Assembly (NCBI GenBank): GCA_930633525.1
Contig: CAKNFP010000002.1
Location: forward strand, 434,001-498,000
Origin: Hyphomicrobiales bacterium
GTDB lineage: Bacteria > Pseudomonadota > Alphaproteobacteria > Rhizobiales > Beijerinckiaceae
Direction of reading: 5' to 3'
Length of the DNA stretch: 64,000 nucleotides
Position 1 is the first letter of the stretch, and each line of letters starts with the position of its first letter. Shown piece after piece: positions 3,964 through 56,500 of the stretch. The notes under the pieces are model-generated. The model ran no database searches. It was not told where the DNA came from and was given only the letters and a program-made list of their open reading frames with translations. A program made the translations under genes and the position numbers.

Positions 3964-4029
3964 CGCCGTTAAATAATGCCGTGGAAATCGGGCTGCCCGC
4001 CGCTGCGGGCCGGTTCAATGGAAGTGACC

Positions 4030-8651: not shown

Positions 8652-8662
8652 GGCGGGCGCTC

Positions 8663-28680: not shown

Positions 28681-28992
28681 TCAGCCCGCCTTGCGCGCGC
28701 GTCGGCTCACCATGTTATGGACATGGACATGGGCGCCGGTGGGAATGGCCGCGGTCGCGGTGCCGATCGACTGGCCGTATTTCAGGACGGCGTCGTCGAT
28801 CTCATGACGCCGTAACGCCAGTTTGTGCCCCATGGGGATGGGCTCCGTCAGCGAAACCTTTTGAACACCCGCTCCAATTCGCACCCGCGCCTCCCCGGAC
28901 AGATCACGCAATGCCACGGCGACGGTGTCGTCAGGATGGATCACCAGCGCATCCCAGGTCTGGCCCCTCTCGGGCGCATGGATAGAGGCCAT
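28681..28992 (-). CDS. UxaA/SuyA-like small subunit (SAF domain)
   Basis: Protein of 103 residues with a single SAF domain: DDTVAVALRDL, then SLTEPIPMGHKLALR and the His-rich end IPTGAHVHVHNM. In fused altronate dehydratase (UxaA) this is the N-terminal domain; as a separate small protein it resembles SuyA, the small subunit of (2R)-sulfolactate sulfo-lyase, and split UxaA-type sugar-acid dehydratases. ATG 28992 shares one base with the stop of the large subunit gene, so the two are translated together and should form one enzyme. It is the last gene of the lacI-led leftward operon. Confidence 0.85.
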   Translation of the reverse strand: MASIHAPERGQTWDALVIHPDDTVAVALRDLSGEARVRIGAGVQKVSLTEPIPMGHKLALRRHEIDDAVLKYGQSIGTATAAIPTGAHVHVHNMVSRRARKAG

Positions 28993-30185
28993 CAGAACGA
29001 TCCTCCGAAACGGGCGAAGCACTCGTCGCCTTCACCGAAAATTTCGCCCCAGGTCGCTGTGCCGGATGCAACCGCCAGCATCAGGTCTAACAGCTCAGCC
29101 GCAACCGCATCGGCGGCCCTCTCGCCGCGGAGCAGAGGGCTTGCATCGAAATCGATCTGCTCCGTCAACAAGCGGGCTGTACCAGGATGGCCGCTGATCT
29201 TGATCGTCGGCGCAAGCCGGCTGCAGAAGCTGTTGCCGGGGCCGGTCGTAAACAGCATGATCTGCGCGCCGGCTGCGGCAAAGCCCGTCAATGACTCGGG
29301 CGAGAAGCCCGGCCCGTCCATCACATGCAATCCGGGCCCCGATGGCGGTTCGGCGAAGGCAAGCACGGAGCGGATCGGCCGCTCGCCCGCCTTGGCAATC
29401 GCGCCGAGCGATTTCTCCTCGATCGACGAGAGCCCGCCGCGCACGTTCTCGTGGCCTGGGTTGTTATAAAGGAGATCGACGCCGAGTGCGGCGACCGCCT
29501 CCTCCCGGCGGGCCACGGCAGCGACGATCGCCGCGCCGATAGCCGCATCCGCCGCGCGCTCCGCCAACACGTGCTCGGCTCCCAGCCATTCCAGCGTTTC
29601 GCCAATGACGGCCGTTCCGCCCCGGTCGATGAGACGGTCGGCGATCGTGCCGGCCAGGGGATTGCTGATGATGCCGGAAGTCGCATCCGAATGTCCGCAT
29701 TCGATGCCGATGAACAGATCACTGACGGGCACCACGCTGCGGCGTTCTTCGGACAGATTGCGCGTGAGCCTCCCGCCTAGTCGGATGCCGCGCTCCGTGA
29801 GAAGGAGCGCATCCTCATGGACGTCGTCGAGCGTGATGATGACCACGGGCTTGCCCGACCGAGCCTCGATCGCCTCGCCGATGGCATCGGCGCTTGGCCT
29901 GTCCACGCCGACGATCAATGTCGCGCCGATATTGGGATGACAGCCGAGACCGACGAGCTGCGCCGTATGCATGGCCTTGTCGGGCCCGAGCTGGCCGCGG
30001 CCGTAGGGTGTCGCGACAAGTTTGCTCCCCGGCAAGGCTGCCGCTATGCGTTGCGCCGCCGGTGTGATCAACCCATTGATCCCGAGCACGAGCAAGCCAT
30101 TGCGCACACCCGCCCGGCCCAGCGGACGCGGGTAACCCAGGAAGCTCGCGGCGCCGTCCTGCGCCGCTCCTTGAACCTGCCCCAT
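28992..30185 (-). CDS. UxaA/GarD/SuyB-family lyase, large subunit
   Basis: Iron-dependent sugar-acid dehydratase or sulfo-lyase large subunit, 397 residues. Family blocks are GRAGVRNGLLVLG near the start, IGIECGHSDATSGIISNPLAG, the HENVRGGLSSIEEKSLG stretch, and AAGAQIMLFTTGPGN leading to PTIKISGHPGTAR. The last segment (TGPGN, KISGHP) looks closer to what I remember of SuyB than to altronate dehydratase, and the separation from the SAF subunit is as in SuyAB; other split members dehydrate L-fuconate and similar aldonates. So the reaction is either dehydration of an aldonate or sulfite elimination. The upstream lactonase gene (43 bases away) would deliver an aldonate. Confidence 0.82.
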   Translation of the reverse strand: MGQVQGAAQDGAASFLGYPRPLGRAGVRNGLLVLGINGLITPAAQRIAAALPGSKLVATPYGRGQLGPDKAMHTAQLVGLGCHPNIGATLIVGVDRPSADAIGEAIEARSGKPVVIITLDDVHEDALLLTERGIRLGGRLTRNLSEERRSVVPVSDLFIGIECGHSDATSGIISNPLAGTIADRLIDRGGTAVIGETLEWLGAEHVLAERAADAAIGAAIVAAVARREEAVAALGVDLLYNNPGHENVRGGLSSIEEKSLGAIAKAGERPIRSVLAFAEPPSGPGLHVMDGPGFSPESLTGFAAAGAQIMLFTTGPGNSFCSRLAPTIKISGHPGTARLLTEQIDFDASPLLRGERAADAVAAELLDLMLAVASGTATWGEIFGEGDECFARFGGSF

Positions 30186-30228
30186 CCAGCTCTCCCTTAG
30201 GGTCGTTTTTTGCTATCTGTCGTCGAGA

Positions 30229-31089
30229 TTAGCCGGCGTAGGACGGCTCGGGCAGACCGGCGACAGCGGGCTCGAAGGCGAGCACCGCACCGGCGAGCGG
30301 CTCCGCCTCATGTTGCTCCGGGCTCAGGCCCTGCGTCGCGGTCGTGATGAAAAGCGTACGCAGCCCCGGCCCGCCGAAACTGCAGGAGGTCGGATTCGAG
30401 ACTGGCAACGACACCAACTTGTCGAGGCGCCCATCCGGCGCGAAACGCGCCAAACTGCCAGCGCCAAAGCGCGCGTTCCAGACGAAGCCCTCCGCGTCGA
30501 CTGTCGCGCCGTCAGGCTTGCCGGGCACGACGCCCGCCGGCACGAAGGGCCCGCGCGCCCTGACTTCGCCAGTATCGACGTCGAGGTCGAGGCAATCGAT
30601 CGTGCCGCGTGCGGAATCGGCGACGTAGACCCGGTCGCCCGCCGGGGCAAAACAGATCGCATTGGGAACTGTCAGGCCATCAAGGATCCTCTTGCAGGCG
30701 AGACCGGGACCGACGCAATAGAGGCTTCCTGTGGACGCGCGTCCGAAATCCCACATTGTCGAGAACCAGATGCGTCCACGACCGTCACATCGGGAATCAT
30801 TGATACGATTCTCGACATGGCCTTCATCGACAGGCAGTAACTGCCGCAAAGCCGCGGTGACGGTGTCGAATGCATAAAGGCCGGACTTCAACCCAAGAAC
30901 AAGTCCGCCTCCGCGATGCAGCATCACGGCGCCCGCCAGTTCTGGCAGAGGCCACCGCGTCACGGCGCCGTCTGCATCGAGCCTGGCGACAGATGGCGCA
31001 CGAATGTCGACCCAATAGAGCGCTTCTTCCGTCTGCGACCAAACCGGGGATTCGCCCAGCACATCCATCGCCTGTGTGACAGCCCTCAC
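30229..31089 (-). CDS. SMP-30/gluconolactonase family sugar lactonase
   Basis: Six-bladed propeller lactonase of 286 residues. The metal ligands of the family can be placed: Glu13 (VLGESPVWSQ), Asn143 (LTVPNAICFAP) and Asp193 (GKPDGATVDAEG); the substrate-side asparagines are in NRINDSR (Asn94, Asn97). It should therefore be an active hydrolase of a sugar 1,4- or 1,5-lactone. The GTG start at 31089 overlaps the lacI stop (GTGA), and the UxaA-like lyase genes follow, so the order regulator, lactonase, lyase matches an oxidative sugar pathway in which the aldose dehydrogenase encoded at 36949-37995 makes the lactone. Confidence 0.88.
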   Translation of the reverse strand: MRAVTQAMDVLGESPVWSQTEEALYWVDIRAPSVARLDADGAVTRWPLPELAGAVMLHRGGGLVLGLKSGLYAFDTVTAALRQLLPVDEGHVENRINDSRCDGRGRIWFSTMWDFGRASTGSLYCVGPGLACKRILDGLTVPNAICFAPAGDRVYVADSARGTIDCLDLDVDTGEVRARGPFVPAGVVPGKPDGATVDAEGFVWNARFGAGSLARFAPDGRLDKLVSLPVSNPTSCSFGGPGLRTLFITTATQGLSPEQHEAEPLAGAVLAFEPAVAGLPEPSYAG

Positions 31090-32177
31090 GGTGCCTTCCC
31101 CTTGGCTTTTTTCCTGACGACAGCCGGCGCGCTCCGGCCGGATGCGGCCGTCGAGCCACGCCTGATGATTTCAAATCCCATATCGACGACACGCTGTTCG
31201 ATGGGTAGCCCGGCAATCCGATCGAGCAGCATTGTGCCGGCGCGAGCGCCAATCTCGAAACGCGGGATGCGCACTGTCGTCAGCGACGGATTGAGATTTT
31301 CCGCAATTTCCAACCCCTCAAACCCGGCGATGGCGAGGTCTTCCGGCACGCGGATGCCGAGACGCTGTGCCTCGAACAGCGCGCCCGCGGCGATATAGTC
31401 GCCGGTGCAAAACAGCGCCTCGACATCGGGACGCCGCTCGACCAGCGCGCGCAGTTCGTGGCCACCGGCCTTCAAGCTCATTTCCAACTCCACCACAAAG
31501 CCCGGGTCATCATCGAGCCCGCACTCGCGGATCGCCGCGCGATAGCCCGCCTGGCGCTCGCTCTGCCGCTCATTGTTCTTGGTGAAAGTCGTGAACAGGG
31601 CCACCTTGCGATAGCCCTGCTCGGCCAACATGCGCGTGACCTTGTAGGTCGCGTCGAAATTCGAGAAGCCGACGGCCATATCGATCGGATCCTTGGGCAG
31701 GATCGCGATTTCCACCGTAGGAATGGCGTTGTCCCGCAACATCTTGCGGGTTCTGGCCGTATGCGTCGCGCCCGTCAGGTAGATGCCATCGACCCGCCGG
31801 GCGAGAAACTCCGCGACAATCGTCTCCTCGTCCTTGGGCGCGAATTCGCTGTTGCCGAGAAGCAGATGATAGCCGCGCGCCTTGAGAACATGGCCAAAGC
31901 CATCGGCGAAATCCGCGGCGATCGAGTTGCGCAAGGTCGGGATGACCGCGCCTATCGTCATGGTCTGGTTCGACGACAGGCTGCTCGCCACACGGTTCGG
32001 GATATAGCCGGTCGCCGCGATGGCAGCGGAAATCTTCTTTCGCGTCTCCTCGGAAACGAGATGCGGAAAGGAAATGGCGCGTGAAACGGTCATCGGCGCG
32101 ACCCCGGCGAGCCGCGCCACATCGCGAATGCCGGCACGCTTCATTCCGCGCCCTGAAGGTTCCGAGACATCGACCAT
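31086..32177 (-). CDS. LacI-family repressor, GntR/IdnR-like
   Basis: Regulator of 363 residues from ATG 32177 (a shorter start, ATG 32144, MKRAGIRDVARL, is also possible). The helix-turn-helix is IRDVARLAGVAPMTVSRAIS, then the hinge GYIPNRVASSLSS. Several effector-domain stretches (THTARTRKMLRDNAIPTVEI, DMAVGFSNF, AIAGFEGLEIAENLNP) resemble E. coli GntR as I recall it, pointing to a sugar-acid or lactone effector. It is the first gene of the leftward operon and lies next to a near-perfect palindromic operator (32211-32230) that resembles GntR/IdnR sites. It probably represses both this operon and the divergent ABC operon. Confidence 0.9.
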   Translation of the reverse strand: MVDVSEPSGRGMKRAGIRDVARLAGVAPMTVSRAISFPHLVSEETRKKISAAIAATGYIPNRVASSLSSNQTMTIGAVIPTLRNSIAADFADGFGHVLKARGYHLLLGNSEFAPKDEETIVAEFLARRVDGIYLTGATHTARTRKMLRDNAIPTVEIAILPKDPIDMAVGFSNFDATYKVTRMLAEQGYRKVALFTTFTKNNERQSERQAGYRAAIRECGLDDDPGFVVELEMSLKAGGHELRALVERRPDVEALFCTGDYIAAGALFEAQRLGIRVPEDLAIAGFEGLEIAENLNPSLTTVRIPRFEIGARAGTMLLDRIAGLPIEQRVVDMGFEIIRRGSTAASGRSAPAVVRKKAKGKAP

Positions 32178-32210
32178 GCTTTTCGCATACTCTCGTCGCT
32201 TGACGTTGTC

Positions 32211-32230
32211 GAATGTTACCGGTACCATTC
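32211..32230. promoter_or_regulatory. LacI/GntR-type operator
   Basis: GAATGTTACCGGTACCATTC is symmetric at 18 of 20 positions around a central CCGG, the hallmark of LacI-family operators, and its core TGTTACCGGTA resembles the E. coli gluconate repressor site. It lies between the divergent lacI (start 32177) and ABC permease (start 32267) genes, where one bound dimer could block both promoters. Confidence 0.75.
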
Positions 32231-38154: not shown

Positions 38155-39864
38155 CTACGCCGCGCTTTCGCGAAAGCGCCGTGGCGGCTGGCCGCGCGTG
38201 CCGGTACGGACCGCCAGCAATTGGCCGGAGGCCGGCGCCTGAGCGGAAAGACCGGCTGGAAGACGGATCCATGTCGATGTCACGTAGAGCGTCGAAAGAT
38301 CATCGCCGCCGAACGCACAGTTGGTCGGCATCGGTACGGGTAGAATGACTTCCTCAACGAGACGACCCGACGGAGCATAGCGGCATACGCGCCAGCCGCC
38401 GAGGCAGGCGACCCAGAGGTGATCCTCCGCATCCACGGTTATGCCATTCGGGTTGCCGGGCAGCACGGTCGCGTCCAGAAACTCACGTTGATTGGCGATG
38501 CGCCCGGTTTCGAGATCATAGTCGAAAGCAAAGACGATGCTATTGGCCGAATCGGCGAAGTAAAGCCGCTCGCTTCTGGTATCGAAGGCCACGTTCTTGG
38601 CCATGCCGACCTTGTCGATGCGGCGGTGCACAGCGAGATCCCCTTCCACTGCATAAAGGCTGCCGCGGCCGATCTCGTGGTTGATGGCCATGGTCCCGAC
38701 CCACAGCCGGCCCCTGGCATCGACGCCAACCGTGTTGCAGCGGTTGTCGACGCGGTCCGCCTCCGGGTCCACAAGCCGACGTTCCGAACCATTGTCCGTG
38801 TCCAGCACGAACAGCCCATGCTGGCCGGCGGCGATCAGGCGATCCTGATCATCGAAGGCAATGCCCGCCGTCAGGCGCGGAAGCTCCGTGCGTCCCGCCT
38901 CACGTCGGGCGGGGTCCCACCACCTGAGCGCCGGCGCCAGAACGTCCACCCAGTAGAGACGCCTGCGCGTCTGGCTCCAGACGGGGTTTTCGCCGACGAA
39001 GTCGCGCCCTGTCGGCAACACCTCGACCTTGCTCGCCACCGGCTCCTCCGGCCGTGGCTGAACGGGCCGTGTCGCGTAGCCCATGCCGATATGACCGGAA
39101 GCGCGGCGCGCCGCCTCGACGAGGGCGCGGCCCGCGTCATGCAGATCCTCGGCCGCTATCTGATCTGTTTCGAACAAGCAGGCGAGCGCCCCTATGGGAT
39201 AGCCCGTCTCATCAAGGATGGCCGATGCTGCGCCGGCCCGGCCGGAGACCGGCTCGCGCGTCATCACCGCATAACCCAGCGCCTTGGCGACGCCGAGATC
39301 GGCCCTCAGCCGGTCCATCGCCGCTTTCTCAAGCGGCGGCTGCAATGACAAGGCCTTGAGGAAGGCGTCACAGCGATCTTCCGGGAGGGCGGCGAGCAAT
39401 GCGCGGCCCGCCGCGCTTTCGATAGCGCGTGATCGGGGCCAGAAGCGCACCAGGCGTCCATAGGATGGATCTGCATCCTCGAAGTCGAGAACGAAGACGT
39501 CCTCATTATCGAGCACCATCACGCAGATCGTACGCTGCAACAGACGCGCGACGCGGGCGAGTTCAGGCTTGGCGGCCCGGATGATGCCGCTTTGATCGAG
39601 GCTGCGACGCGAGAGCTCGAGCACCCGCATACCCACATGATAGGTGCGCGTGCGCTCATCATGGCGAATGAGACGCCGGCTCGCCAGCGCGGCCAGCAGC
39701 CGATGCAATGACGCGCGTGGGATGCCGATGGATTTCTCGAGATCCCGGAACCGAGGCGGCTGCGGCGCGGTGCCGATGGCAAGCAGCACATCGAGGCCCC
39801 GCAAGAGGGCCTGCGCGCCAGGGACATCGCCGTCCTGCTCCGTTTCGCTTGCCGGCTCCACCAC
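38155..39864 (-). CDS. IclR-family regulator fused to SMP-30/gluconolactonase-like domain
   Basis: One chain of about 569 residues. Residues 15-75 are an IclR winged helix (ALLRGLDVLLAI, then KSIGIPRASLHRLLAALASRRLI); residues 90-260 the IclR effector domain (GIIRAAKPELARVARLLQRT, SRAIESAAGRALLAALP); a short linker; residues 280-569 a complete SMP-30 propeller (FVGENPVWSQ, NRCNTVGVDARGRLWVG). Of the lactonase metal ligands Glu292 and Asn424 are kept, but the Asp of the PDG motif is Asn473 (GNPNGITVD), so catalysis may be lost and the domain may act as a lactone or aldonate sensor. Start: GTG 39864, six bases after GGGAG; earlier in-frame starts would overlap the divergent gene. Probable controller of the enolase/SDR/ABC operon. 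Confidence 0.88.
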   Translation of the reverse strand: MVEPASETEQDGDVPGAQALLRGLDVLLAIGTAPQPPRFRDLEKSIGIPRASLHRLLAALASRRLIRHDERTRTYHVGMRVLELSRRSLDQSGIIRAAKPELARVARLLQRTICVMVLDNEDVFVLDFEDADPSYGRLVRFWPRSRAIESAAGRALLAALPEDRCDAFLKALSLQPPLEKAAMDRLRADLGVAKALGYAVMTREPVSGRAGAASAILDETGYPIGALACLFETDQIAAEDLHDAGRALVEAARRASGHIGMGYATRPVQPRPEEPVASKVEVLPTGRDFVGENPVWSQTRRRLYWVDVLAPALRWWDPARREAGRTELPRLTAGIAFDDQDRLIAAGQHGLFVLDTDNGSERRLVDPEADRVDNRCNTVGVDARGRLWVGTMAINHEIGRGSLYAVEGDLAVHRRIDKVGMAKNVAFDTRSERLYFADSANSIVFAFDYDLETGRIANQREFLDATVLPGNPNGITVDAEDHLWVACLGGWRVCRYAPSGRLVEEVILPVPMPTNCAFGGDDLSTLYVTSTWIRLPAGLSAQAPASGQLLAVRTGTRGQPPRRFRESAA

Positions 39865-39889: not shown

Positions 39890-39931
39890 TCATGAGAATT
39901 GAAGTTGACATCAATCACAACTGTCTCATGA
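39890..39931. promoter_or_regulatory. Divergent promoter with inverted repeats (candidate IclR operator)
   Basis: TCATGAGA at 39890-39897 and TCTCATGA at 39924-39931 are perfect inverted copies. Inside them AGTTG (39903-39907) and CAACT (39918-39922) form a second inverted pair. They fill most of the 97-base gap between the IclR-lactonase fusion gene and the divergent enolase-superfamily gene, the expected place for an IclR operator. Confidence 0.6.
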
Positions 39932-39961
39932 TATGGAACAAATAGCACGCCGGGAGAAGAA

Positions 39962-41158
39962 ATGTCCACGGATGGCCCAAAGCCGCTTACGATCCAGGCC
40001 TTGCAACCCCATCTCATCCGGGTTTCACCCAAAACGCACTGGATCATCGTCGAACTGAGCCTGGCTGATGGCACAACGGGCTGGGGGGAGGCGACGCTTG
40101 CCGGCGCTGAAGAGGCTGTTCTCGCGGAAATCGCTCACGCCAACACGTTGCTCGCCGGGCTCGGCTTCTCCGGCCCTGCGGAGATCGTCAGCCGTCTGCG
40201 GCTGGCGCACGCATCGCTGGCACGGACGATCGTGATGCGGGCCGTGGAGCAGGCCGCTCTCGACGCGCTCGCCCGTCGCGCCGGGCTGCCGCTGGCGGCG
40301 CTCCTCGGCGGTCCCGAGCGCATGACCATTCCCATCTATGCCAATATCAATCGCGGCATTGCTGATCGCAGCCCCGCCGGCTTCGCCGCGCGCGCCCGCG
40401 ACGTGGTGACGTCGGACGGTTACAGGGCTGTCAAGATCGCCCCCTTCGATGGCTTGAACTGGGCGCGGACCGATCATGTTGCGGGCCAGCGCCTCCTCGC
40501 CGCCGGTATCGCGCGCATCGAAGCCGTGCGCGAAGCCATCGGGCCGGAGACAGCTCTGCTTGTGGACTGCCACGCGCGCCTTTCACCGGTAATGGCGCGG
40601 CAAGTGTTGCGCGCTGTGGAGGCGACATCCCTCTTCTGGTTCGAAGAGCCCCTCGACGAGCACGCCTTCGACGGCGAAACGGCAAGGGCGCTGCGCAGCT
40701 TCGCCAATGATCGCGGCGTCAGGATTGCGGGCGGCGAGCAACTCGCAACGATGACAGAGGCCCGCGATTTCCTCGCACGCGGTGCATGCGACGCCATTCT
40801 GCCGGACCTGCGCTGGACAGGCCTGCGCTCAGGGCTGACCATTCTGGAACTTGCCGCCTCTTCGGGCGTCGCGGTCAGCCTGCACAATCCCGTCGGGCCG
40901 GTGCTTGACCGCATCAGCCTGCAGATGGCGGCGGCGCTGCCGTCCTTCCTTATTCTCGAGCGGCAAGTGCGCGAGAGCCCGCTTTTCGACGAAATCGGCG
41001 GCGGACACGACACAGTCGTGGACGGCGCCATCGCGATCGACGCGGTACCCGGCTTTGGGCCGCCGCCTGATCGTCAGGCCCTTGGCCGGCACGCGGTCCG
41101 GGATTTCGCACGCCCCGCGAGCCTTGCCGGGATCCCTGGCGCAGGAGGTGACGCATGA
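39962..41158 (+). CDS. Enolase-superfamily sugar-acid dehydratase (mandelate racemase/muconate lactonizing type)
   Basis: Protein of 398 residues with the N-terminal capping domain (GTTGWGEATLAG) and C-terminal barrel. The Mg ligands fit Asp in LLVDCHARL, Glu in LFWFEEPLDE and Glu in IAGGEQLATM; a Lys lies in the second-strand motif YRAVKIAPFDG and a possible acid/base His is in VSLHNPVGP. Most relatives dehydrate aldonates such as galactonate, rhamnonate or fuconate, others are racemases or cycloisomerases. It is the first gene of an operon with an SDR and a peptide/sugar-type ABC importer, divergent from the IclR-lactonase fusion, so an acid-sugar dehydratase is the best guess. Confidence 0.85.
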   Translation: MSTDGPKPLTIQALQPHLIRVSPKTHWIIVELSLADGTTGWGEATLAGAEEAVLAEIAHANTLLAGLGFSGPAEIVSRLRLAHASLARTIVMRAVEQAALDALARRAGLPLAALLGGPERMTIPIYANINRGIADRSPAGFAARARDVVTSDGYRAVKIAPFDGLNWARTDHVAGQRLLAAGIARIEAVREAIGPETALLVDCHARLSPVMARQVLRAVEATSLFWFEEPLDEHAFDGETARALRSFANDRGVRIAGGEQLATMTEARDFLARGACDAILPDLRWTGLRSGLTILELAASSGVAVSLHNPVGPVLDRISLQMAAALPSFLILERQVRESPLFDEIGGGHDTVVDGAIAIDAVPGFGPPPDRQALGRHAVRDFARPASLAGIPGAGGDA

Positions 41159-42012
41159 CCGTTCCGATCCGCCCGACCGCCTCCGACATGCCGCTCAAAG
41201 CTGATCTCACCGGCCGTCGCGTGCTGGTGACCGGCGCCAGCCGGGGCATTGCCGCGGCAATCGCGCGCGGCTTAGCGGCATGCGGTGCAAGGCTCGCCCT
41301 GAATTACTGCGCGGATGCCGACAAGCGCGCAGGCTTTGCCGATGCCGCAGATAACCTGGGAACGGAGATTAGCGAGGGTGGAGGCACAGCCGTCATCATC
41401 GAGGGAGACCTCACGCGCCCCGGAAATGCGGAGCGCGTCGTCGCGGACGCCATTGCCGCGCTTGGTGGCATAGACATTCTTGTCCTCAGCGCATCCATCC
41501 AGATTCACAAGGACTTCCTTGAGCAATCCCCCGCCGATGTCACGCAGCAACTCCAGATCAACGTGCTGTCGAATATCGCCATGCTTCAGGGTGTGCTTCC
41601 CCAAATGCGCCGGCAACACTGGGGACGTGTCGTAACCATCGGCAGTGTCCAGGAGACCGCCCCCTCCGGGGAGATGCCGATCTACGCCATGACGAAGGGA
41701 GCGCTGGAGAACCTCGTCCGCAATCTCGCCGTGCAGAACGCCGCCTATGGCATTACCGTCAACAACATCGCCCCAGGCCTCGTGCAGACGGATCGCAATG
41801 CCTTCCGACGCCGCGATCCGGCGGCATGGGAGACTGTTTCCGCCAGCGCCAATCCGATCGGCCGCGCCGGCCAACCGGAAGATATCGTCGGCGCGGCACT
41901 CTATCTTGCCTCCGATGCCGCCTCATTCGTGACGGGCACAACGATCCAGGTCACCGGAGGCGCCCATATTCCCTGGCGCCCCGACGCTTCACGTAGACAG
42001 GCCGCCGAGTAA
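41155..42012 (+). CDS. SDR-family oxidoreductase
   Basis: Short-chain dehydrogenase of 285 residues; ATG 41155 overlaps the preceding stop, though ATG 41188 (MPLKADLTGRRVLVTG) would fit the usual family length better. Cofactor motif VTGASRGIAAAIA (the last glycine of the standard TGxxxGIG is Ala), the strand LVLSASIQIH in place of the usual NNAG, catalytic Ser in TIGSVQE, and YAMTK with the catalytic Tyr and Lys. The replacement of NNAG by LSAS is uncommon. Context suggests oxidation or reduction of a sugar or keto-sugar acid in the same pathway as the enolase-superfamily protein. Confidence 0.85.
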   Translation: MTVPIRPTASDMPLKADLTGRRVLVTGASRGIAAAIARGLAACGARLALNYCADADKRAGFADAADNLGTEISEGGGTAVIIEGDLTRPGNAERVVADAIAALGGIDILVLSASIQIHKDFLEQSPADVTQQLQINVLSNIAMLQGVLPQMRRQHWGRVVTIGSVQETAPSGEMPIYAMTKGALENLVRNLAVQNAAYGITVNNIAPGLVQTDRNAFRRRDPAAWETVSASANPIGRAGQPEDIVGAALYLASDAASFVTGTTIQVTGGAHIPWRPDASRRQAAE

Positions 42013-42092: not shown

Positions 42093-43853
42093 ATGATTAC
42101 CCGCCGGGGCTTCAATAGCATAGCCGTTTCAATGGCCGCTCTTGGCGTTGCCGCGCCGAAGGCCGCGCTCAGCCAGTCGCCGGGCAATGTCGCCCGCAAC
42201 AAGACCCTGATCGTCGCCGTGCAGGCAGAGGCGCCGGTTTACCGCAACGTCGGCCAGGCCAATCCCTATTCGATCAATAACGAGGACTTCCGCGGGTCGA
42301 TCATCAACATGTTCGAGCCGCTATTTTACTACAACTCGAACAAGAACGAGGTCATCCCGTGGGTCGCCGCCGGGCTTGAAAGCAACGAAGACTACACCTC
42401 ATTCACAGTGAAGCTGCGCGACGGCGTCACCTGGAGTGATGGCAAGCCTTTCACCGCCGATGATGTCGTCTATACGCTCGAGATGCTAATGGCGAACGGC
42501 AAGGGAAAGCGCGATCTCACACAGTCATCCGGCGTCGCCGACGCCGTGAAGGCGGTCTCGAAGATCGACCCGCTGACCGTGAAGATCGATCTCAACAAAG
42601 GCGATCCGCGCTTTGCTTTCAAGTATCTGATCAACTACTTCGATATTGGTCTGCAATGGCTGCCGGCTCACGTCTGGCGGGATATACCCGACCCAGCGGC
42701 GTTCTCCTTCTTCGACGTCGCCAAGGGCTGGCCCCTCACCACCGGTCCATGGAAGGTCACGCGCTTCACCGACAACCAGATCTTCATGGACAGGCGGCCG
42801 GAGTGGTGGGCAACCAAGGCCGGTCTTGCAACCATGCCGGCCATGGAGCGCGTCATCACAATTCCCGGCGGCACCCGCGACCGGATGGCTCAACTCGTCG
42901 CGGCCAACCAGGTCGATATCGTCAATGACATCCAGATCAGTGAGGTGATGAAGCAACTCGTCACCCAGAACCCGAAGATCACGACATTCACGGGCAAAAA
43001 CTCTCCCTACGGCGCGAAGGACTGGTGGCCGACTTCGCTCTATTTCAATCACAAGAGTGAGAAATGGGCCGATGTCGATGTTCGTCGCGCTCTCAACCAC
43101 TATCTCGACCGCAAGCAACTCATCGACACCGCCTATGCCGGCGCCAGCGAGGCCAAATTCGATCCCTATCCCGGGTTCGGCTCGCTCAAACCCTATATCG
43201 ACGCGATCCGCCCCATCGCCGACAAATACGGGATCGGCCATTTCGACAAGGCCAAGGGCGACGCGCTGATGCAAAAGGCGGGCTTCGCCAAGAATGATGC
43301 CGGCATCTGGGCGAAGGACGGCAAGCCGCTGTCGGCGGTGATCGAAGCGATCCCGGTTCTCAATGCCATCGGCCCGGTCGTGGCGCAGCAATTGAAAAAC
43401 GCCGGCGTCGATGCGAGCTTCCGTTCCACCCCGGAAAGCCGCGCGATCATGCGCGACGGCAAGTATGATCTATGCCTCTTCGGCCATCGTGGCTCGATCA
43501 GCGATCCCTATGCGACGCTCGAAAACTACCACAGCCGCAATGCCTTGCCGGTCGGGCAGCCGATCCTCCTCCCCGCCCGCTGGTCGAACGCCGACTACGA
43601 CAAGATCGTCGATGAGGCTTCCAAAGTGCCACCGAATGACCCGCGGCTGATGGATCTCGTCAAGGCGGCCATGGAAATCTGGATGCGCGAGGCCGTCGAG
43701 GCTCCGATCTCGGAATGGTACCACCGCGTGCCCATGAACCAGACCTATTGGACCGGCTGGCCGAGCGAGGAGGATCCTTATATGCAGCCGAGCTTCTGGT
43801 ATACATCCGGAAGCTTTGGCTATGTCATGCCGAAGCTCAAGCCGGCATCCTGA
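42093..43853 (+). CDS. ABC transporter substrate-binding protein, family 5 (peptide/oligosaccharide)
   Basis: Periplasmic binding protein of 586 residues, DppA/OppA class. Strong AGGAGGAA ribosome-binding site before ATG 42093. Twin-arginine start MITRRGFN with a hydrophobic stretch ending ALSQ. Family blocks are GLESNEDYTSFTVKLRDGVTWSDGKPF (given here only to name the class), YFNHKSEKWADVDVRRALN-like region and DPYATLENYHSR. Proteins of this class bind peptides, nickel, opines and also plant- or algal-derived oligosaccharides. Because the operon starts with a sugar-acid dehydratase and an SDR, a carbohydrate ligand is more likely than a peptide. Confidence 0.87.
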   Translation: MITRRGFNSIAVSMAALGVAAPKAALSQSPGNVARNKTLIVAVQAEAPVYRNVGQANPYSINNEDFRGSIINMFEPLFYYNSNKNEVIPWVAAGLESNEDYTSFTVKLRDGVTWSDGKPFTADDVVYTLEMLMANGKGKRDLTQSSGVADAVKAVSKIDPLTVKIDLNKGDPRFAFKYLINYFDIGLQWLPAHVWRDIPDPAAFSFFDVAKGWPLTTGPWKVTRFTDNQIFMDRRPEWWATKAGLATMPAMERVITIPGGTRDRMAQLVAANQVDIVNDIQISEVMKQLVTQNPKITTFTGKNSPYGAKDWWPTSLYFNHKSEKWADVDVRRALNHYLDRKQLIDTAYAGASEAKFDPYPGFGSLKPYIDAIRPIADKYGIGHFDKAKGDALMQKAGFAKNDAGIWAKDGKPLSAVIEAIPVLNAIGPVVAQQLKNAGVDASFRSTPESRAIMRDGKYDLCLFGHRGSISDPYATLENYHSRNALPVGQPILLPARWSNADYDKIVDEASKVPPNDPRLMDLVKAAMEIWMREAVEAPISEWYHRVPMNQTYWTGWPSEEDPYMQPSFWYTSGSFGYVMPKLKPAS

Positions 43854-43881
43854 TAGTCTTCGTGGGAAATCGGAGGCAGTT

Positions 43882-44883
43882 GTGCCGTTTCGCCTGATAG
43901 TGCGACGTCTCGTGATGGTGCTGGCGGTTGTCTGGGCCGCCGGCACGATCAACTTCTTCATTCCGCGGATCTCGCCGAAGAATCCGATCGCCGAAAAACT
44001 GACCCAGATGGCTGGCACATCCGGCGTCGATCCGACGAAGATCAAGGAGATGGCGGAAGCGTTCAATGTCAAATTCGGCTTGGACAAGCCGCTCTGGCAG
44101 CAGTATCTGAGCTATCTGCATGATGTTTTCACACTCGATTTCGGCCAGTCCATCACGCAGTATCCTGTGCGTGTCTCAGCGCTGATCGGCGCGGCAATGC
44201 CATGGACGATCGGCCTGATGGTAACGACGACACTGATTGCCTTCATCCTCGGCACGTTACTCGGCGCCGCGGCCGCCTGGAAACGCGACAGCCGCATCTT
44301 GCAGATCCTGTCGCCGCTGATGATGGTCTTCTCCGCGATCCCGTTCTATCTGATCGGTCTCGTGCTGATCTACTTCTTTGCTGCCAAGCTCGGCTGGTTC
44401 CCTCTCTCGGGCGGCTATGGCATCATATCCATTCCCGACTGGTCGTGGGATTTCGCACTTGAAGTGCTTTACCACTCCGTCCTGCCGGCGCTGTCCATCA
44501 TCATCGCCTCGATCGGCACCTGGGCCATCGGCATGCGCGGCATGATGGTGACCGTGGAAGGCGAAGACTACATGACCTTCGCCGATGCGAAAGGCCTGCG
44601 TCCCGGCCGCCTCTTCCTGCGCTACGGCATGCGCAATGCGGTGCTCCCGCAAGTCACCGCGCTTGCGCTCTATTTCGGCCAGATCGTCACCGGCGCGGTT
44701 CTTGTCGAGATTGTCTTTGCTTATCCTGGCGTCGGCACTTTATTGCTCGATTCGATCAAGCTTTACGACTTCCCGACGATCTACGGCATCGTCTTCATTC
44801 TGACGCTGACCGTTGCCCTGTCGATGCTGATCGTGGACCTCATCTATCCCCTGCTCGACCCGCGCGTCCGGGTGGAGGCCTGA
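43882..44883 (+). CDS. ABC transporter permease, DppB type
   Basis: Permease of 333 residues, about six membrane helices. GTG 43882 follows GGAGG at 43872-43876; the frame extends upstream inside the binding-protein gene but is not coding there. Characteristic N-terminus RLVMVLAVVWAAGTINFFIPR, a long periplasmic segment, GQYPVR-like region DFGQSITQYPVRV, and the EAA-type loop YMTFADAKGLRPGRLFLRYGMRNAVLPQ. It pairs with the DppC-type permease four bases downstream. Confidence 0.9.
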   Translation: MPFRLIVRRLVMVLAVVWAAGTINFFIPRISPKNPIAEKLTQMAGTSGVDPTKIKEMAEAFNVKFGLDKPLWQQYLSYLHDVFTLDFGQSITQYPVRVSALIGAAMPWTIGLMVTTTLIAFILGTLLGAAAAWKRDSRILQILSPLMMVFSAIPFYLIGLVLIYFFAAKLGWFPLSGGYGIISIPDWSWDFALEVLYHSVLPALSIIIASIGTWAIGMRGMMVTVEGEDYMTFADAKGLRPGRLFLRYGMRNAVLPQVTALALYFGQIVTGAVLVEIVFAYPGVGTLLLDSIKLYDFPTIYGIVFILTLTVALSMLIVDLIYPLLDPRVRVEA

Positions 44884-44886
44884 GCC

Positions 44887-45795
44887 ATGTCAGATCGTGT
44901 CGTACAGATCGCCGAGGAAGCCGACTGGGGTTCGTTCCATGGGAAGATCCTGGCCTGCGGTCGTTATCTCCTGCGCAATCCCTCCCTGCTGATGGGCCTT
45001 GGACTGATCCTCGGGCTCGGTGCCTTCACCCTTTTCGGGCGGCTCATCATGGATGTGAGGCTCGCCGCGCCGCTCTCCGCGCCGCCAGCCGCACCACCGG
45101 GCGCGGGTTTGCCGCTCGGATCAGATCCGCAGGGGCGCAACCTCATGGCGGTGATGATCGAGGGCACCTGGCTCACCATTCGCACCGGTGTCATCGCGGG
45201 TGGGCTCGGCGTCGTGGTGGGCAGCGCCATCGGCTTTATCAGCGCCTATTTCGGCGGCATGACGGATCGCGTCATCACCTGGTGCATCGACGTGCTGCTG
45301 ACGGTCCCCGCCATCCTCTTCCTTGTCATGATCTCCGCTGTCGTACAGACAGGCCTCACCTCAATCGGGATGGCGCTAATCGTCGCCGCGCTCGCGTGGC
45401 GCCGGCCCGCGCGCCAGGTGCGCAGCCAGATGCTCGTGATGCGCTCATCCGGCTATGTCGATATGGCGAAGCTGTCCGGCCTTGGTCCGCTGCGCATCAT
45501 CTTCTTCGAGATCGCGCCCAATCTTCTGCCATTCCTCGTCTCGTCCTTCGTCACCGCGGTTGCCGCCGCCATTCTCGCCAGTGTCGGGCTGGAGGCGATG
45601 GGGCTCGGGCCCCAGAACGAGCCGACCCTTGGCATGACGATCTTCTGGATCATGGAATTCTCGGCCTTCCTGCGGGGGTTGTGGTGGTGGATCCTCCCGC
45701 CGGTCGGGATCCTTATCGTGCTCTTTGTCGGTCTCTATCTCATCAACGCGGGCCTCGACGAACTCGCCAATCCCCGCCTGCGCAGGAGGGCATGA
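44887..45795 (+). CDS. ABC transporter permease, DppC type
   Basis: Permease of 302 residues with the typical DppC N-terminal helix and the block PLGSDPQGRNLMAVMIEGTW that marks this family (usual form GTDxxGRD). The ATPase-contacting loop is MRSSGYVDMAKLSGLGPLRIIFFEIAPN. Three bases separate it from the DppB-type gene and four from the start of the fused ATPase gene, so all transport subunits are co-translated. Confidence 0.9.
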   Translation: MSDRVVQIAEEADWGSFHGKILACGRYLLRNPSLLMGLGLILGLGAFTLFGRLIMDVRLAAPLSAPPAAPPGAGLPLGSDPQGRNLMAVMIEGTWLTIRTGVIAGGLGVVVGSAIGFISAYFGGMTDRVITWCIDVLLTVPAILFLVMISAVVQTGLTSIGMALIVAALAWRRPARQVRSQMLVMRSSGYVDMAKLSGLGPLRIIFFEIAPNLLPFLVSSFVTAVAAAILASVGLEAMGLGPQNEPTLGMTIFWIMEFSAFLRGLWWWILPPVGILIVLFVGLYLINAGLDELANPRLRRRA

Positions 45796-45799
45796 CGCC

Positions 45800-47554
45800 A
45801 TGATCGCCGGACAAGCCCGCCTCCTCCAGGCATCCCCTCTCCTTTCGGTGCGTGATCTCAGCATCGATTTCTACACGGCCACCAAGGTCGTGCATGCCGT
45901 GCGCAATGTGTCGTTTGATGTCGCGGCCGGCGAGCGTGTTGGGCTCGTCGGCGAATCCGGCTCCGGTAAGACAACGACGGCGCTCGCTCTCATGCGCATG
46001 ATCAAGCCGCCCGGCCGGATCGCCGGCGGTAGCGCGCACCTCGGCGACATGGATCTGTTCGCGTTGCAGGGCCGCGCGATCCGCGAGGCGCGGCTGCGCC
46101 ACGTCTCCTATGTCCCGCAGGGCGCGATGAATGCGCTCAATCCCGTGCTTCGCATTCGCGAGCAGATCCTTGACGGCGTGACCGACCACGGCGGGCCCCT
46201 CACTAGGACCGCGCAGGATGCGCTGGTAGTGGAGGTGCTGACGAGCGTCGGCCTTCCGGAGGCGGTTGCCATGCGCTATCCGCATCAGCTTTCCGGCGGC
46301 ATGAAGCAGCGCGCCTGTATCGCCATCGCCATCGCGCTGAAGCCAAGCCTGATCATCGCCGACGAACCGACGAGCGCGCTCGACGTCATCACCCAGCGCC
46401 AGGTCATGAGAACCCTGACGCAAGTCCAGGAGCGCATGGGCTGCGGCCTCATCCTCATCGGCCATGACATGGGCCTCATGGCGCAGGTCGCCGACCGCAT
46501 GATCGTGATGCAGGATGGTTTCATCGTCGAAGACGCCGCCGTGCGCAGCCTTTTCCGTCAACCACGGCACAGCTACTCGCGCATGCTCATCGACAGCGTG
46601 CCCACCCTTGGGGCGCGCCGCGCGCCGGATATTTCAGTCGCCGATCCCTCCGCGTCTCAAGCGACAACGCCGCTGCTTGCTTTCGAGGGGGTGAGCAAGA
46701 CCTTCGGCGGGGGGCTTTTCGCGGGCCCGCCCAAGACGGCCCTCGCCCCTTGCAGCTTCCGGCTCGAGAGCGATGCGCCGCGCATTGTGGCGGTGGTCGG
46801 CCAATCGGGCTCGGGCAAGACCACGATGGCCCGTCTCGTCCTCGGCTTCGAGACGCCGAGCACCGGCGCGGTGCTCTATCGCGGGCACGACCTGGCGCAG
46901 CTCTCGGGCGACCCTGCACGTCGCTATCGGCGCGAGGTTCAGGCGATTTTCCAGGATCCCTATGGCTCATTCAATCCGTTCTACAAGGTTGATCGCACCC
47001 TCGCGCAACCCCTCGTCAGCTTTGGCCTGGCGCAGGACCGGAAAGCCATCTATGCGCGCATGGAGGAAGCCTGCGCCGCCGTCGGCCTGCGTGCCGGCGA
47101 AATTCTCGGGCGCTTTCCGCATGAGCTCTCGGGCGGTCAGCGCCAGCGCCTGATGGTCGCCCGAGCCCTGCTGCTGAGGCCGAAGCTGATCGTCGCCGAC
47201 GAGCCCGTCTCGATGGTCGACGCATCGCTGCGCATGTCCATTCTGGCGAATATGCAGGAGCTGCGGACTGCGCACGGCATCTCGGTGATCTACATCACCC
47301 ATGATCTGGCGACCGCCTATCATGTCGCCGATTATGTCCTGGTGCTGCACGAGGGCCACCTCGTCGAGGCAGGCCCCCCCGCCGAGGTTATCGAGCGGCC
47401 CGCCCACCCCTATACCCGCAGCCTGGTCGAGGCCATTCCATGGCCCGACCCGGACCGGCGTTGGCCGGAGCTCAATCCTGAGCTGCACGCGGCCTGGTCT
47501 GCTCCGCCGGTCATGCGCAGCGCGATCACGGGTTTTACATTGCGCGCGGCGTAA
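45800..47554 (+). CDS. Fused ABC ATPases (DppD-DppF type)
   Basis: Two ABC ATPase domains in one chain of 584 residues. First: Walker A GESGSGKTT, signature LSGGMKQRACIA, Walker B LIIADEPTSALD. Second: Walker A GQSGSGKTT, signature LSGGQRQRLMVARA, Walker B LIVADEPVSMVD. I start at ATG 45800 (MIAGQARLLQ), four bases after the DppC stop; upstream in-frame sequence belongs to the dppC gene. The order equals DppD then DppF. This completes the importer: one binding protein, two permeases, one double ATPase. It is the last gene of the operon. Confidence 0.9.
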   Translation: MIAGQARLLQASPLLSVRDLSIDFYTATKVVHAVRNVSFDVAAGERVGLVGESGSGKTTTALALMRMIKPPGRIAGGSAHLGDMDLFALQGRAIREARLRHVSYVPQGAMNALNPVLRIREQILDGVTDHGGPLTRTAQDALVVEVLTSVGLPEAVAMRYPHQLSGGMKQRACIAIAIALKPSLIIADEPTSALDVITQRQVMRTLTQVQERMGCGLILIGHDMGLMAQVADRMIVMQDGFIVEDAAVRSLFRQPRHSYSRMLIDSVPTLGARRAPDISVADPSASQATTPLLAFEGVSKTFGGGLFAGPPKTALAPCSFRLESDAPRIVAVVGQSGSGKTTMARLVLGFETPSTGAVLYRGHDLAQLSGDPARRYRREVQAIFQDPYGSFNPFYKVDRTLAQPLVSFGLAQDRKAIYARMEEACAAVGLRAGEILGRFPHELSGGQRQRLMVARALLLRPKLIVADEPVSMVDASLRMSILANMQELRTAHGISVIYITHDLATAYHVADYVLVLHEGHLVEAGPPAEVIERPAHPYTRSLVEAIPWPDPDRRWPELNPELHAAWSAPPVMRSAITGFTLRAA

Positions 47555-50298: not shown

Positions 50299-51696
50299 TC
50301 AGAACACCGCCACGCTGCGCAGGCCCAGGACCGTCGCATTGGGGATCCTGCGCCACGGCGTCTCCGGGTCAGGTTCGCCGCCGCCCGGCCGGACGATCCA
50401 TTGCGCAAAGGGCTGGACCTTCAGCCAGGGCGCGAATTGAGCCTGATAGGAGGCCTCGATCACCACCTCTGACGATCGGATCGGCCGTGGCTCTCCGGTG
50501 AAGGCAATCATGTCCCGATCAAGCCGCTGCAGGCTGGGGCTTACCCCGGCATAGGCGACGGCTACGCCGACGACATCATTCGTCCGCCCGGGCAACAACC
50601 CGGTGAAGGTGAGGCCTGAATCCATGTAGAAGTCGACCGTGCTGCGGTCCTTCTGCGGCGCAACCACCAATCGCGCGAAGGCCGCGAGGCTGCGGCCCGT
50701 GAGGTCGGCATCCGATGCGCGCCACAGGGTCTGGTCAATGACGCCGTAGAGGGCGAAATTGCCACGATGGCCGCGAGGATCGGTGTCCCCATCGGGGGCC
50801 GCGAGGGGCAATCCGTTGGCTGATATCCGCTGATCGTTGAAACGCATCGAGTCGTACCAGCCGCCGACTGTGTAGGTACCGGCCAGCCCGTCGGCGAAGA
50901 CCTGGGTGTAGGCCACTTCACCGATCGCAAAGATCCCCTGGTTGAGCGGGAACGTCAGGCCATGCCTGTTCTGATCGTCGCGCCCTAGCGGGTTGCCGCT
51001 ATAGACGCCCGCCCGAGCCATCCAGGCTTCGTTGAATTGATAAGCGACACGGATCCCTGGCGCCGGCACCGGATAGGCAGGCCCGCCGCCTGGCAGGACA
51101 ATGCCATTGAGGCCAGGCCAGCCGAAGGCGGAGTTCACGAACAGGCCGGCAGTGTCACTCGTCGCAAACTCGCCATCGGCGGCAATCTGACCGACCTTGA
51201 GAGACAGGCGTCCGTCGAAGAATGTCTGCATAAAGTAGAGCTCGGCGAGCCGCCCCGCCGGATCGGCCTCGATACTGGAGATCGGCATCAAATTGCCGAT
51301 GTATTTGCCGGACAATCCAAGGCCGCCGATGAAGAACGCGCCCGCATGAAAAGCCCCGCCTTGCCAGCCGACCAGCTTCTCGAGATCAAAATCCACATCG
51401 AGCTGGAGAAGCCCTGAAAAGCCACTTCCCTGCTGCAGGCCGCCGGAGACATCCGTCGAGAGATCGCCCGTGGCTCTCAGACCGAATGTAATCCCCGCAT
51501 CTTCCAGCCGTGTGCGGGCGCCACTCCAGTCTCCTGTCAAGCGCTCGCGCCCGAACACGCCGGCGCCGCTGGATGGCTCCGCAGTGGCTATGGCCGGCGC
51601 GGCGTCTGCCGCATGGGCTGGTAGGGACGTGAAGGCCAGCAGGCATGACACGGCAACGTCTGGCCAGCCTGCTTTGATCGACAAGGGGTGGATCAA
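50299..51696 (-). CDS. Carbohydrate porin, OprB family
   Basis: Outer-membrane beta-barrel porin of 465 residues. It starts with TTG 51696, preceded by a GGAG site, and has a signal peptide ending SLPAHAADA. The family block near the mature N-terminus is RERLTGDWSGARTRLEDAGI, and the protein ends with alternating aromatic strands closing in a terminal Phe (VLGLRSVAVF), as outer-membrane proteins need for assembly. OprB porins admit glucose and other sugars. It stands alone on the minus strand between genes for surface glycosylation and could serve any of the sugar importers in the window. Confidence 0.88.
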   Translation of the reverse strand: MIHPLSIKAGWPDVAVSCLLAFTSLPAHAADAAPAIATAEPSSGAGVFGRERLTGDWSGARTRLEDAGITFGLRATGDLSTDVSGGLQQGSGFSGLLQLDVDFDLEKLVGWQGGAFHAGAFFIGGLGLSGKYIGNLMPISSIEADPAGRLAELYFMQTFFDGRLSLKVGQIAADGEFATSDTAGLFVNSAFGWPGLNGIVLPGGGPAYPVPAPGIRVAYQFNEAWMARAGVYSGNPLGRDDQNRHGLTFPLNQGIFAIGEVAYTQVFADGLAGTYTVGGWYDSMRFNDQRISANGLPLAAPDGDTDPRGHRGNFALYGVIDQTLWRASDADLTGRSLAAFARLVVAPQKDRSTVDFYMDSGLTFTGLLPGRTNDVVGVAVAYAGVSPSLQRLDRDMIAFTGEPRPIRSSEVVIEASYQAQFAPWLKVQPFAQWIVRPGGGEPDPETPWRRIPNATVLGLRSVAVF

Positions 51697-53577: not shown

Positions 53578-56500
53578 TTAGGGGAGCAAATCCGCAGCAG
53601 ACGGACTTGCTGAAGCCCTGTTGCGCGCGCCGGCCACCAGGGGCTGCGGATCCGGCTGATGTCTCCGGGAGAACCGGCCTTGCAGCCGTGCGAGATAGAG
53701 ATAGACGACCGGTGTCGTGTAGAGCGTCAGCAGCTGGCTCAGCAGCAGGCCGCCAACCATGGCATAGCCGAGAGGCTGCCTGAGCTCCGAACCAGTGCCA
53801 TTGCCGAGCATCAGCGGCACGCCTGCCAGAAGCGCCGCCATCGTCGTCATGAGGATTGGGCGGAAGCGCAGCCGGCAGGCCTCGCGGATGGCCTCTTCCG
53901 AGGTCAAACCGCTTTGCCTTTCGCCGACGATGGCGAAATCGACCAACAGGATACCATTCTTCTTCACGATACCGATGAGAAGCATGATCCCGATGATGCC
54001 GATGACGGAAAGATCGAACCCGCCGCCCCAAAGGGCGAGCAATGCACCCACACCAGCCGAAGGCAAGGTGGAGAGAATGGTGAGCGGATGGACGAAGCTC
54101 TCGTAGAGCATGCCAAGAATGACATAGACCGCAAAGAGCGCGGCCGCGATGAGGGCCGGCTCACTGGCGAGCGCGCTCTGGAAGGCCTGCGCATTGCCCT
54201 GGAAGCCCCCCGTCAGCGTCGAGGGTGCGCCGATCGAACCGGCCGCAGTGGTGATGGCATCAACCGCATCGCCGAGCGAAACGCCCGGCTTCAGGTTGAA
54301 AGATAGGGTCACCGCGGGGAATTGGGCCTGATGCGAGACAGAGAGCGGCCCGACGCCTTTTGCATCCAGGGTGACAAAGGTGGACAGCGGAATGGCCTGC
54401 CCCGACGAGGGCGATTTCACGTAGATCTGGTCGAGGGTCCCGATATGGCCCAGCAGATCCGGTTTGGCTTCCAGGATGACGGAATAGGAGTTCAGCTGGG
54501 TGAAAAACTGCGTCACCTTCTGCTGTCCGAAAGCGTCGTTCAACGTCGCGTCGATCAGCGCTGGCTGGATGCCAAAGCGCGCGGCCCGATCGCGATCGAT
54601 GGTCACCTTGAGTTGCGGGGCGTTGCCTTGCTGGTCGCTCGACACATCGGTGAGTTCCGGCAATTGCCTCAGCCGTGCCAGAAGCTTCGGCGCCCAGGTA
54701 TTGAGCTCGGCGAGATCGACGTCGGTCAGCGTGTACTGATAGAGCCCGCGCGAAACACGGCCTCCGACGGTGATATCCTGCGCCGGCTGGAGAAATACTG
54801 CCGCGCCGGCCACTTCCCCAAGCTTCGGCCGGAGCCGGTTGATGATCTGCGCGGCGGAAGCATCCCGTTCGCCGCGCGGCTTCAACGCAATGAAGAAGCG
54901 CCCGTTGTTGGTGGTATTGGCACCGCCCGCGCCGAGCACGGAACCGAAGGCGGCGACCGCCGGATCCTGCGCGATCACGGCACCGAGTTCCTGTTGCAGG
55001 CGCTTCATCTCCTCAGGCGAGACATCCTGGGCGGCCTCCGACAACCCCATGATGAGACCGGTGTCCTGCGTCGGGAAGAAACCTTTCGGTATGATGACGA
55101 ACAGCCAGCCGGTAAGCCCGAGGGTCAGAAAAAAGATGGTGAGCGTCACCCGCCGATACCGCAAAGCGATATCGAGTGTACTGATGTAAACTCCCAGAAT
55201 CGCGTCGAAGCCGCCTTCGATCAGCCGGTAGAGCCGACCGTGCGTATGGCTCGGCGGCTTGAGAAAGCGCGAGCAGAGCATCGGTGTCAGGGTGAGCGAG
55301 ATGAACACCGACACTGCGATCGCCGCCGTCACGGTCAACGCGAATTCGCGGAACAGCCGCCCGACGATGCCCCCCATCAGGAGCAGCGGAATGAACACCG
55401 CGACCAACGACAGGCTGATGGACAGCACCGTGAAGCCGATCTCGCGCGCTCCGCTCATCGAGGCGGTAAAGGCGTCCTGCCCGTCCTCCATGTGACGCAC
55501 GATATTCTCAACCACCACGATGGCATCGTCGACGACGAAGCCGACGGCGATGGTCAGAGCCATCAACGACAGATTGTCGATGCTGAAGCCAAGCGCATAC
55601 ATGACGGCCGCGCTGCCCGCGAAAGACAGCGGCACGACCACGGCCGGAATGGCGGTCGCGCGCAGATTGCGCAGGAACAGCAGGATGACCAGTACGACCA
55701 GCGCGATGGTCAGCACGAGCGTGAACTGGACGTCAGCGACCGAAGCCCGGATCGTCACCGAGCGATCGACGACCGTATCGACCTTGATGCCCGCCGGCAG
55801 CACGTTGTCGAGGAGGGGCAGCGTCGCCTTGATGGCATCGATCGTCGCGATGACATTGGCGCCGGGTTGCTTGAATACCAGCAGCACAACGGCGCGGCGG
55901 TCGTTCTGCCAGGCCGCGACATCCCTGTTCTCCGGGCCGACCACGGCATGGCCGACATCACGGACCCGAATGGGTGCGCCCTCGCGGTAAGCCAGGATGA
56001 CATTGTCATAGTCTTCCGGCTTGGTGATCTGGTCATTGGCCGCGATCGTGAAACTGCGCACCGCGCCGTTCACCACGCCCTTGGGCGCCTCGGCGGTGGC
56101 GTTAGCGAGCGTGGCGTGCACATCCTCCAGCGTAAGGCCGGTACCGGCGAGCTTGGCCGGATCGACCTGGACGCGGATGGCCGGCTTCTGCTCGCCGCCA
56201 ATGACAACCTGCGACACCCCCTCCACCTGCGACAGGCGCTGTGCCAGCACATTGTCGGCGGAATCATCGACATCGGTCAGGGGCAGGGTGTCGGAATGCG
56301 CCGCCAGGATCATGATGGGGCTGTCAGCGGGGTTGACCTTGCGGTAGCTCGGCGGGGAGGCCAGATCGTCCGGCAGTTGCCGCTGGGCGGCTGTGATCGC
56401 GGCCTGAACGTCTTGCGCGGCCGCATCGATGTTGCGATCGAGCGAGAACTGAATGGTAATCGAGGTGGAGCCGAGCGTGCTCGTCGATGTCATCTGGGTG

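Follow-up and report, generated by a model that had tools for sequence, protein, structure and literature searches.

In outline, the protein analysed here resembles the MocR/GabR regulators, which, according to the accessible part of their description, join a DNA-binding domain to a sensor domain derived from an enzyme. Those regulators combine a GntR-type HTH with a PLP aminotransferase fold, whereas the protein encoded in the window (the whole 64,000-nucleotide stretch of DNA analysed) pairs an IclR protein with a metal-lactonase propeller and is not a member: Pfam returned neither a GntR nor an aminotransferase model for it, and two more HTH models stayed below the cut-off. To our knowledge, MocR-like regulators with enzyme-derived sensors are usually seen in their end state only.

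Like members of the IclR family, the window protein carries HTH_IclR (42.3 bits, cut-off 22) and IclR_C (46.1 bits, cut-off 24) above the Pfam thresholds and has an operator-like inverted repeat upstream; it differs from them by a whole propeller placed after IclR_C and by the weak match of IclR_C in its clade. IclR crystal structures were among its Foldseek matches; a separate structure-comparison list (VIA) mainly spans residues 274-569. The propeller belongs by fold and sequence to the SMP-30 family, with an SGL domain and six blades like SMP30, and is distinguished from the SMP-30/regucalcin/xylonolactonase enzymes (PF08450; human SMP30, 3g4e; Caulobacter, 7plb) by Lys for Asn154, Asn for Asp204, and Thr for Asp104. 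Also close, among known systems, are intact fused proteins with the same domain order: L002 from the same genome, L076 (Agrobacterium fabrum C58), L077 (Sinorhizobium meliloti), and L188 (Variovorax). The first three share the window's fused clade in the trees of both halves, L188 lying outside the tree sample. Unlike the window protein, these have a complete Glu/Asn/Asp triad, and their MR_MLE gene is mostly on the same strand.

No literature description of the fusion was found in a search where "SMP-30" may be poorly indexed and subscription journals were mostly uncovered. JGI annotation already names the IclR-SMP-30 domain pair; the architecture is known to databases, and its split into intact and rebuilt sites appears to be undescribed. 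NCBI sources name members SMP-30/gluconolactonase/LRE family protein or L-arabinolactonase, and such lactonase-type names are probably misleading for the clade with lysine in the site (the Lys clade). Our preferred reading, which we moderately favour, is that a single fusion event linked an SMP-30 lactonase to an IclR protein and that the site was rebuilt in the window clade, turning an enzyme-regulator into a probably metal-free sensor of a sugar acid or lactone.

Domains and metal site of the fused protein

The initial annotation described one frame joining an IclR regulator to an SMP-30 propeller, and the 569-residue ORF, Pfam, and structure comparison confirmed this fusion (Table 1). It also stated that two of three metal ligands are kept (Glu292 and Asn424), with the Asp of the PDG motif changed to Asn473. 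According to the accessible part of PMC3551927, the metal ligands of SMP30 are Glu18, Asn154, and Asp204, the last of which may act as a base; the sugar is contacted by Arg101, Asn103, and, in mouse, Glu121, and Asn103 is a fourth metal ligand in related enzymes. The alignments used to match these residues were gap-free around the site motifs. Glu292 is retained and Asn473 falls in the column of Asp204, as proposed. Asn424, by contrast, aligns with Gly155, next to the ligand column, which is occupied by Lys423. The assignment was thus off by one residue and the Asn-to-Lys replacement had been missed. In fact, two of the three ligands differ, and Thr378 in place of Asp104 removes one more acidic residue. 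The Glu18/Asn154/Asp204 set of a metal-dependent lactonase is incomplete in the window protein, and its lid loop is, by alignment, five residues shorter than in the SMP-30 family.

Table 1 Features of the fused gene and its surroundings in the window
Feature	Position	Strand	Details
Fused IclR-SMP-30 gene	38155..39864	-	569 aa, GTG start
HTH_IclR DNA-binding domain	39658..39810	-	Residues 19-69; Pfam
IclR_C effector-domain homologue	39097..39603	-	Residues 88-256; weak match (46 bits); Pfam
SMP-30 (SGL) propeller	38272..38997	-	Residues 290-531; Pfam and structure comparison
Glu292	38989..38991	-	Matches metal ligand Glu18, kept; alignment
Arg375-Cys-Asn377-Thr378	38731..38742	-	Arg101 and Asn103 kept, Asp104 to Thr; alignment
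Lys423	38596..38598	-	Column of metal ligand Asn154; alignment
Asn473	38446..38448	-	Column of Asp204 (metal ligand, proposed base); alignment
Operator-like inverted repeat	39922..39940	+	Matches TGTTCCA-N5-TGGAACA at 12 of 14 arm positions
Divergent MR_MLE (sugar-acid dehydratase-like) gene	39962..41158	+
SDR oxidoreductase	41155..42012	+
Opp-type ABC transporter	42093..47554	+	SBP_bac_5 protein, two permeases, double ATPase
Free-standing SMP-30 lactonase	30229..31089	-	Complete Glu/Asn/Asp triad; Pfam and alignment

The Pfam score of IclR_C is 46 bits in the window protein and 28 in that of Sulfitobacter, against 146 in L002, 131 in Variovorax, and 130 in L003. Among the matches listed, the domain was not detected in 25 of the 89 clade proteins P0002-P0090, as read from a precomputed Pfam column.

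An internal start might allow the gene to yield the propeller as an independent product too. At the domain boundary, GGAGG stands five bases upstream of an in-frame GTG (residue 276; 39037-39049, minus strand), and in L009 and L083, which are one locus, AGGAG stands 9 bases ahead of a different GTG, two residues on. A start conserved across the clade was rejected, as nothing comparable was found in the relatives examined (L082, L047, L081, and L086), although the L082 protein is 95% identical to that of the window; moreover, the product would still carry the altered site. We regard such an independent propeller as very improbable. In L013 and L024, Pfam found no second domain in the long internal ORFs.

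Site states across the fused family

The genome of the window encodes three fused proteins: the window's own, L002 (39% identity to it, complete triad), and L003 (33% identity, Glu/Asn/Gly in the triad columns). L003 (G000:C2:1120901-1122583), with Gly for the catalytic Asp, is divergent to another MR_MLE gene. The domain pair was also found in other genomes, where the initial annotation had suggested looking for it: a protein search in which 8,000 candidates were scored gave at least 104 matches, at least 96 of them with HTH_IclR and SGL (precomputed Pfam column). Matches at E <= 1e-60 were present in 16/397 genomes of the order sample, 5/385 of the class sample, and 22/199 of the family sample, each count including the window's own genome; at 1e-45, five of the 398 genomes of the phylum sample matched, two of them with the propeller only. 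Further samples for the Lys clade matched in 1/10 and 1/28 genomes, both already known, and no Lys-clade match was found in two other samples, of one and four genomes.

Site states were compared between 150 fused rows (proteins and genome loci) and 128 free rows, near-duplicates included. P0004, P0022, P0035, P0038, P0091, and P0100 (near-identical or truncated) as well as L001, L048, and P0117 were dropped beforehand, P0101-P0105 were not included, and P0119 was scored as fused; some sampled loci are short where contigs end. At positions 292/423/473, the fused rows read EKN (66), END (51), EKG (7), DKG (6), ERN (5), EKT (3), ENG (3), EKS (2), DNG (2), and EKC, ERS, ENN, GKN, and ENA (one each). 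The free propellers read END in 124 of 128 rows, the remaining four being gapped in triad columns, one of them with Ile for Asn. The Asp is lost in 99/150 fused rows and in none of the 126 free rows that are ungapped at this column; its loss was therefore seen in fused copies only, the pattern that the initial annotation had proposed to look for. It is not, however, a marker of fusion as such, and this idea was rejected because 51/150 fused rows, including one from a paralogue in the same genome, retain the Asp. Judged by sequence, these supply one half of the counter-evidence named by the initial annotation, which was fused homologues that both keep the Asp and are active lactonases.

The propeller might still be an enzyme, either a weak lactonase with its metal on Glu292, Asn377, and Asn473 or one with new lysine-based chemistry. 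Asn377 is the equivalent of the fourth metal ligand of related enzymes (accessible part of PMC3551927), and the solved structure of DFPase D229N + N120D (2gvu, from the accessible part of its description) indicates that an Asp-to-Asn protein still folds. However, a lysine stands in a ligand column, the proposed base is gone in 92/92 rows with Lys or Arg at 423, none of the rows compared had Asp473 together with either basic residue at 423, and free lactonases with complete triads lie near several Lys loci. A propeller that is still catalytic thus seems rather improbable to us.

Free-standing propellers with the Lys site were also sought. The alignment contained 117 sequences (the query and 116 new proteins from the best 120 of 340 matches), of which 102 had Glu/Asn/Asp and 12, including the query, had Lys. 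The 11 non-query Lys propellers, nine on contigs under 3 kb and two that break off early although their contigs are longer (P0114, 196 aa; P0117, 166 aa), were taken as likely pieces of fused genes and rejected as free propellers. Similarly, a search for unfused IclR relatives (7,996 candidates scored) gave at least 23 matches; 14 of the 23 were at 24-31% identity, and the other nine, at 48-82%, were rejected as close unfused relatives, as their length or broken C-terminus suggests fused-gene pieces.

History and conservation of the altered site

The propeller trees were quick trees, built without the trait columns and with SH-aLRT support only. All 58 fused representatives fall in one clade (98), within which the 36 representatives with Lys or Arg form a single clade (97 and 98). 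The first free sample had been chosen by likeness to the window propeller; because of this resemblance, the tree was repeated with 22 loci whose free propellers most resemble the intact type, and the result was unchanged. L047_S, L006_S, L020_S, L022_S, and L079_S were left out of this second tree on account of long branches. The fewest changes on the propeller trees are one for the fusion, one for Asn/Lys, and four for the Asp, and a tree of 56 sampled loci gave five changes at the Asp. When the IclR half was placed in a tree with 42 unfused IclR rows, the fused clade (99) and the Lys clade (92; its 34-row core, 100) were recovered, in agreement with a single fusion and a single Asn/Lys change. 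As both half-trees give the same fused and Lys clades, the two halves were joined a single time and have been passed on together since. The site was most likely intact at the origin of the fusion, since free outgroup rows show the intact triad. After the fusion, the Asp was lost several times, and one of these losses went together with the lysine. Outside the Lys clade, L079 (plasmid of Roseomonas haemaphysalidis; fused gene at 6977-8701) shows an independent change of this residue, with Asp replaced by Asn and the Asn and Glu kept; a free complete lactonase lies about 5 kb from this gene.

Within the 36 Lys-clade representatives, Arg375 is present in all, Asn377 in 35, Lys423 in 35 (the exception has Arg), Glu292 in 34, and both Asn424 and Asn473 in 32. 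Position 488 carries Trp in 16/16 intact representatives and Leu, Val, Met, Ile, or another residue in the Lys clade. Judged from these patterns, the altered site of the Lys clade is not simple decay. The initial annotation had read the protein as an enzyme turned into a sensor, and this reading is partly supported. The clade-wide conservation of the altered site, the retained sugar contacts, and the loss of the Asp in fused copies only, among the rows compared, speak for it; the Asp change it had invoked does not by itself distinguish fused copies, the lysine had escaped it, and sensing is a function that we infer.

A propeller serving as a mere scaffold, for oligomerisation or stability, with IclR_C sensing the effector as in ordinary IclR proteins, would account for the persistence of IclR_C above its Pfam cut-off in the window protein, and the four separate Asp changes fit a relaxed need for catalysis. 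Within the clade, IclR_C and the propeller also show about equal conservation (mean identity 0.465 and 0.48), so that conservation does not tell which domain senses. Nevertheless, Arg375, Asn377, Glu292, and the new Lys423 are nearly fixed, which argues against a scaffold-only propeller, as a scaffold would not need pocket residues, and the many clade proteins in which IclR_C goes undetected also count against it. We consider a scaffold role unlikely. Returning to the preferred sensor reading, a stronger form, in which the lysine permanently replaced the catalytic divalent metal and sensing moved from an eroding IclR_C to the propeller, giving a metal-free sugar-acid sensor, is one that we put forward tentatively.

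Neighbouring genes and proposed regulation

The gene order of the window, in which the fused gene faces the MR_MLE, SDR, and Opp genes, recurs in two further genomes from the window's genus and also on a plasmid of Sulfitobacter. The five EKN loci have SDR and Opp genes and an MR_MLE gene that points away from the fused gene; two of these, L009 and L083, are one locus (same scores and spacing, contigs equal in length), and L009 was omitted from the free-lactonase statistics for Asp-lost and intact loci and kept in the neighbourhood, operator, and row counts. L086, on a deep sister branch, has MR_MLE and Opp genes in a different, convergent order, and L081, in the Lys clade, has neither dehydratase nor Opp genes nearby. 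Further downstream of the Opp operon, the window encodes an OprB-type carbohydrate porin (50299-51696, minus strand) and an AcrB-type RND transporter (53578-56730, minus strand).

Most intact copies sit within sugar-acid operons: among 44 intact loci, MR_MLE was found in 38, a DHDPS-like gene in 37, and CUT1-type permeases in 41. MR_MLE frames share the strand of the fused gene in 35 of 38 intact cases (divergent in 2, convergent in 1) and in 3 of 12 Asp-lost cases (divergent in 8, convergent in 1; L009/L083 counted twice). These orientations fit an enzyme from a pathway operon that later turned into a divergent regulator, with the proviso that kinship between loci makes them non-independent and that operon content varies with lineage. 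The betaproteobacterial L188 (plasmid of Variovorax boronicumulans, 3230-4870) encodes an intact fused protein downstream of genes for 2-dehydro-3-deoxygalactonokinase and 2-dehydro-3-deoxy-6-phosphogalactonate aldolase; these galactonate-pathway neighbours hint at galactonate as a ligand.

The nearby free lactonase was said to keep all three ligands, and the alignment bears this out. It lies about 7 kb from the fused gene, flanked by a LacI regulator and a dehydratase gene; this cluster (28992-32228, minus strand), in which the lactonase is accompanied by a LacI/GntR-like regulator and a galactarate/altronate dehydratase-like gene, is apparently a separate sugar-acid system. In Sulfitobacter, a free lactonase gene directly follows the fused gene. 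In flanks of about 9 kb, shorter where contigs end, a free propeller was present at 6/12 Asp-lost and 0/44 intact loci (Fisher, 2.8e-5); all six have the complete triad, and the L009 copy was also aligned. This association is not significant because the loci are related: a relatedness-aware pair test found 2 pairs on starred branches (p = 1), the test needing at least 6 informative pairs.

Between the divergent genes of Sulfitobacter (L047) lies a perfect TGTTCCA-N5-TGGAACA. Scored with this motif, the window repeat, which lies in the promoter region shared by the fused gene and its divergent neighbour, was equalled by 0/100 mononucleotide shuffles; the repeats of L082, L083, and L009 match 10 arm positions, and 8 to 9 of 100 shuffles were as good. 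Scores of at least 11 occurred in 8/57 loci, the window and the motif source included.

Taken together, motifs and trees indicate that an SMP-30 lactonase was joined once to an IclR protein and that the lactonase site of the fused ancestor was complete; this ancestor may have combined the roles of enzyme and regulator. In the window clade, the ligands changed from Asn to Lys and from Asp to Asn, the neighbouring Asp became Thr or Ser, and the Trp in the wall gave way to mostly aliphatic residues, the Glu, Arg, and Asn being retained. Reading from these sequences, the propeller most likely no longer hydrolyses lactones. The ammonium group of Lys423 would take the metal's place and, with Glu292, Arg375, and Asn377, would hold a sugar acid or lactone as signal. 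Ligand binding would alter the seating of the IclR half on the putative operator, and the regulator would switch its own gene and the dehydratase/SDR/Opp operon arranged divergently to it. The lost activity, the sugar ligand, and the control of the operon, by repression or activation, are predictions.

As the Asp changed at least four times in one fused family, its intact and altered members would form a natural enzyme-to-sensor series. The reaction presumed lost offers a clue to the likely ligand, and, since intact and altered versions of one fusion coexist, even in a single genome, the steps from enzyme-regulator to sensor are directly testable.
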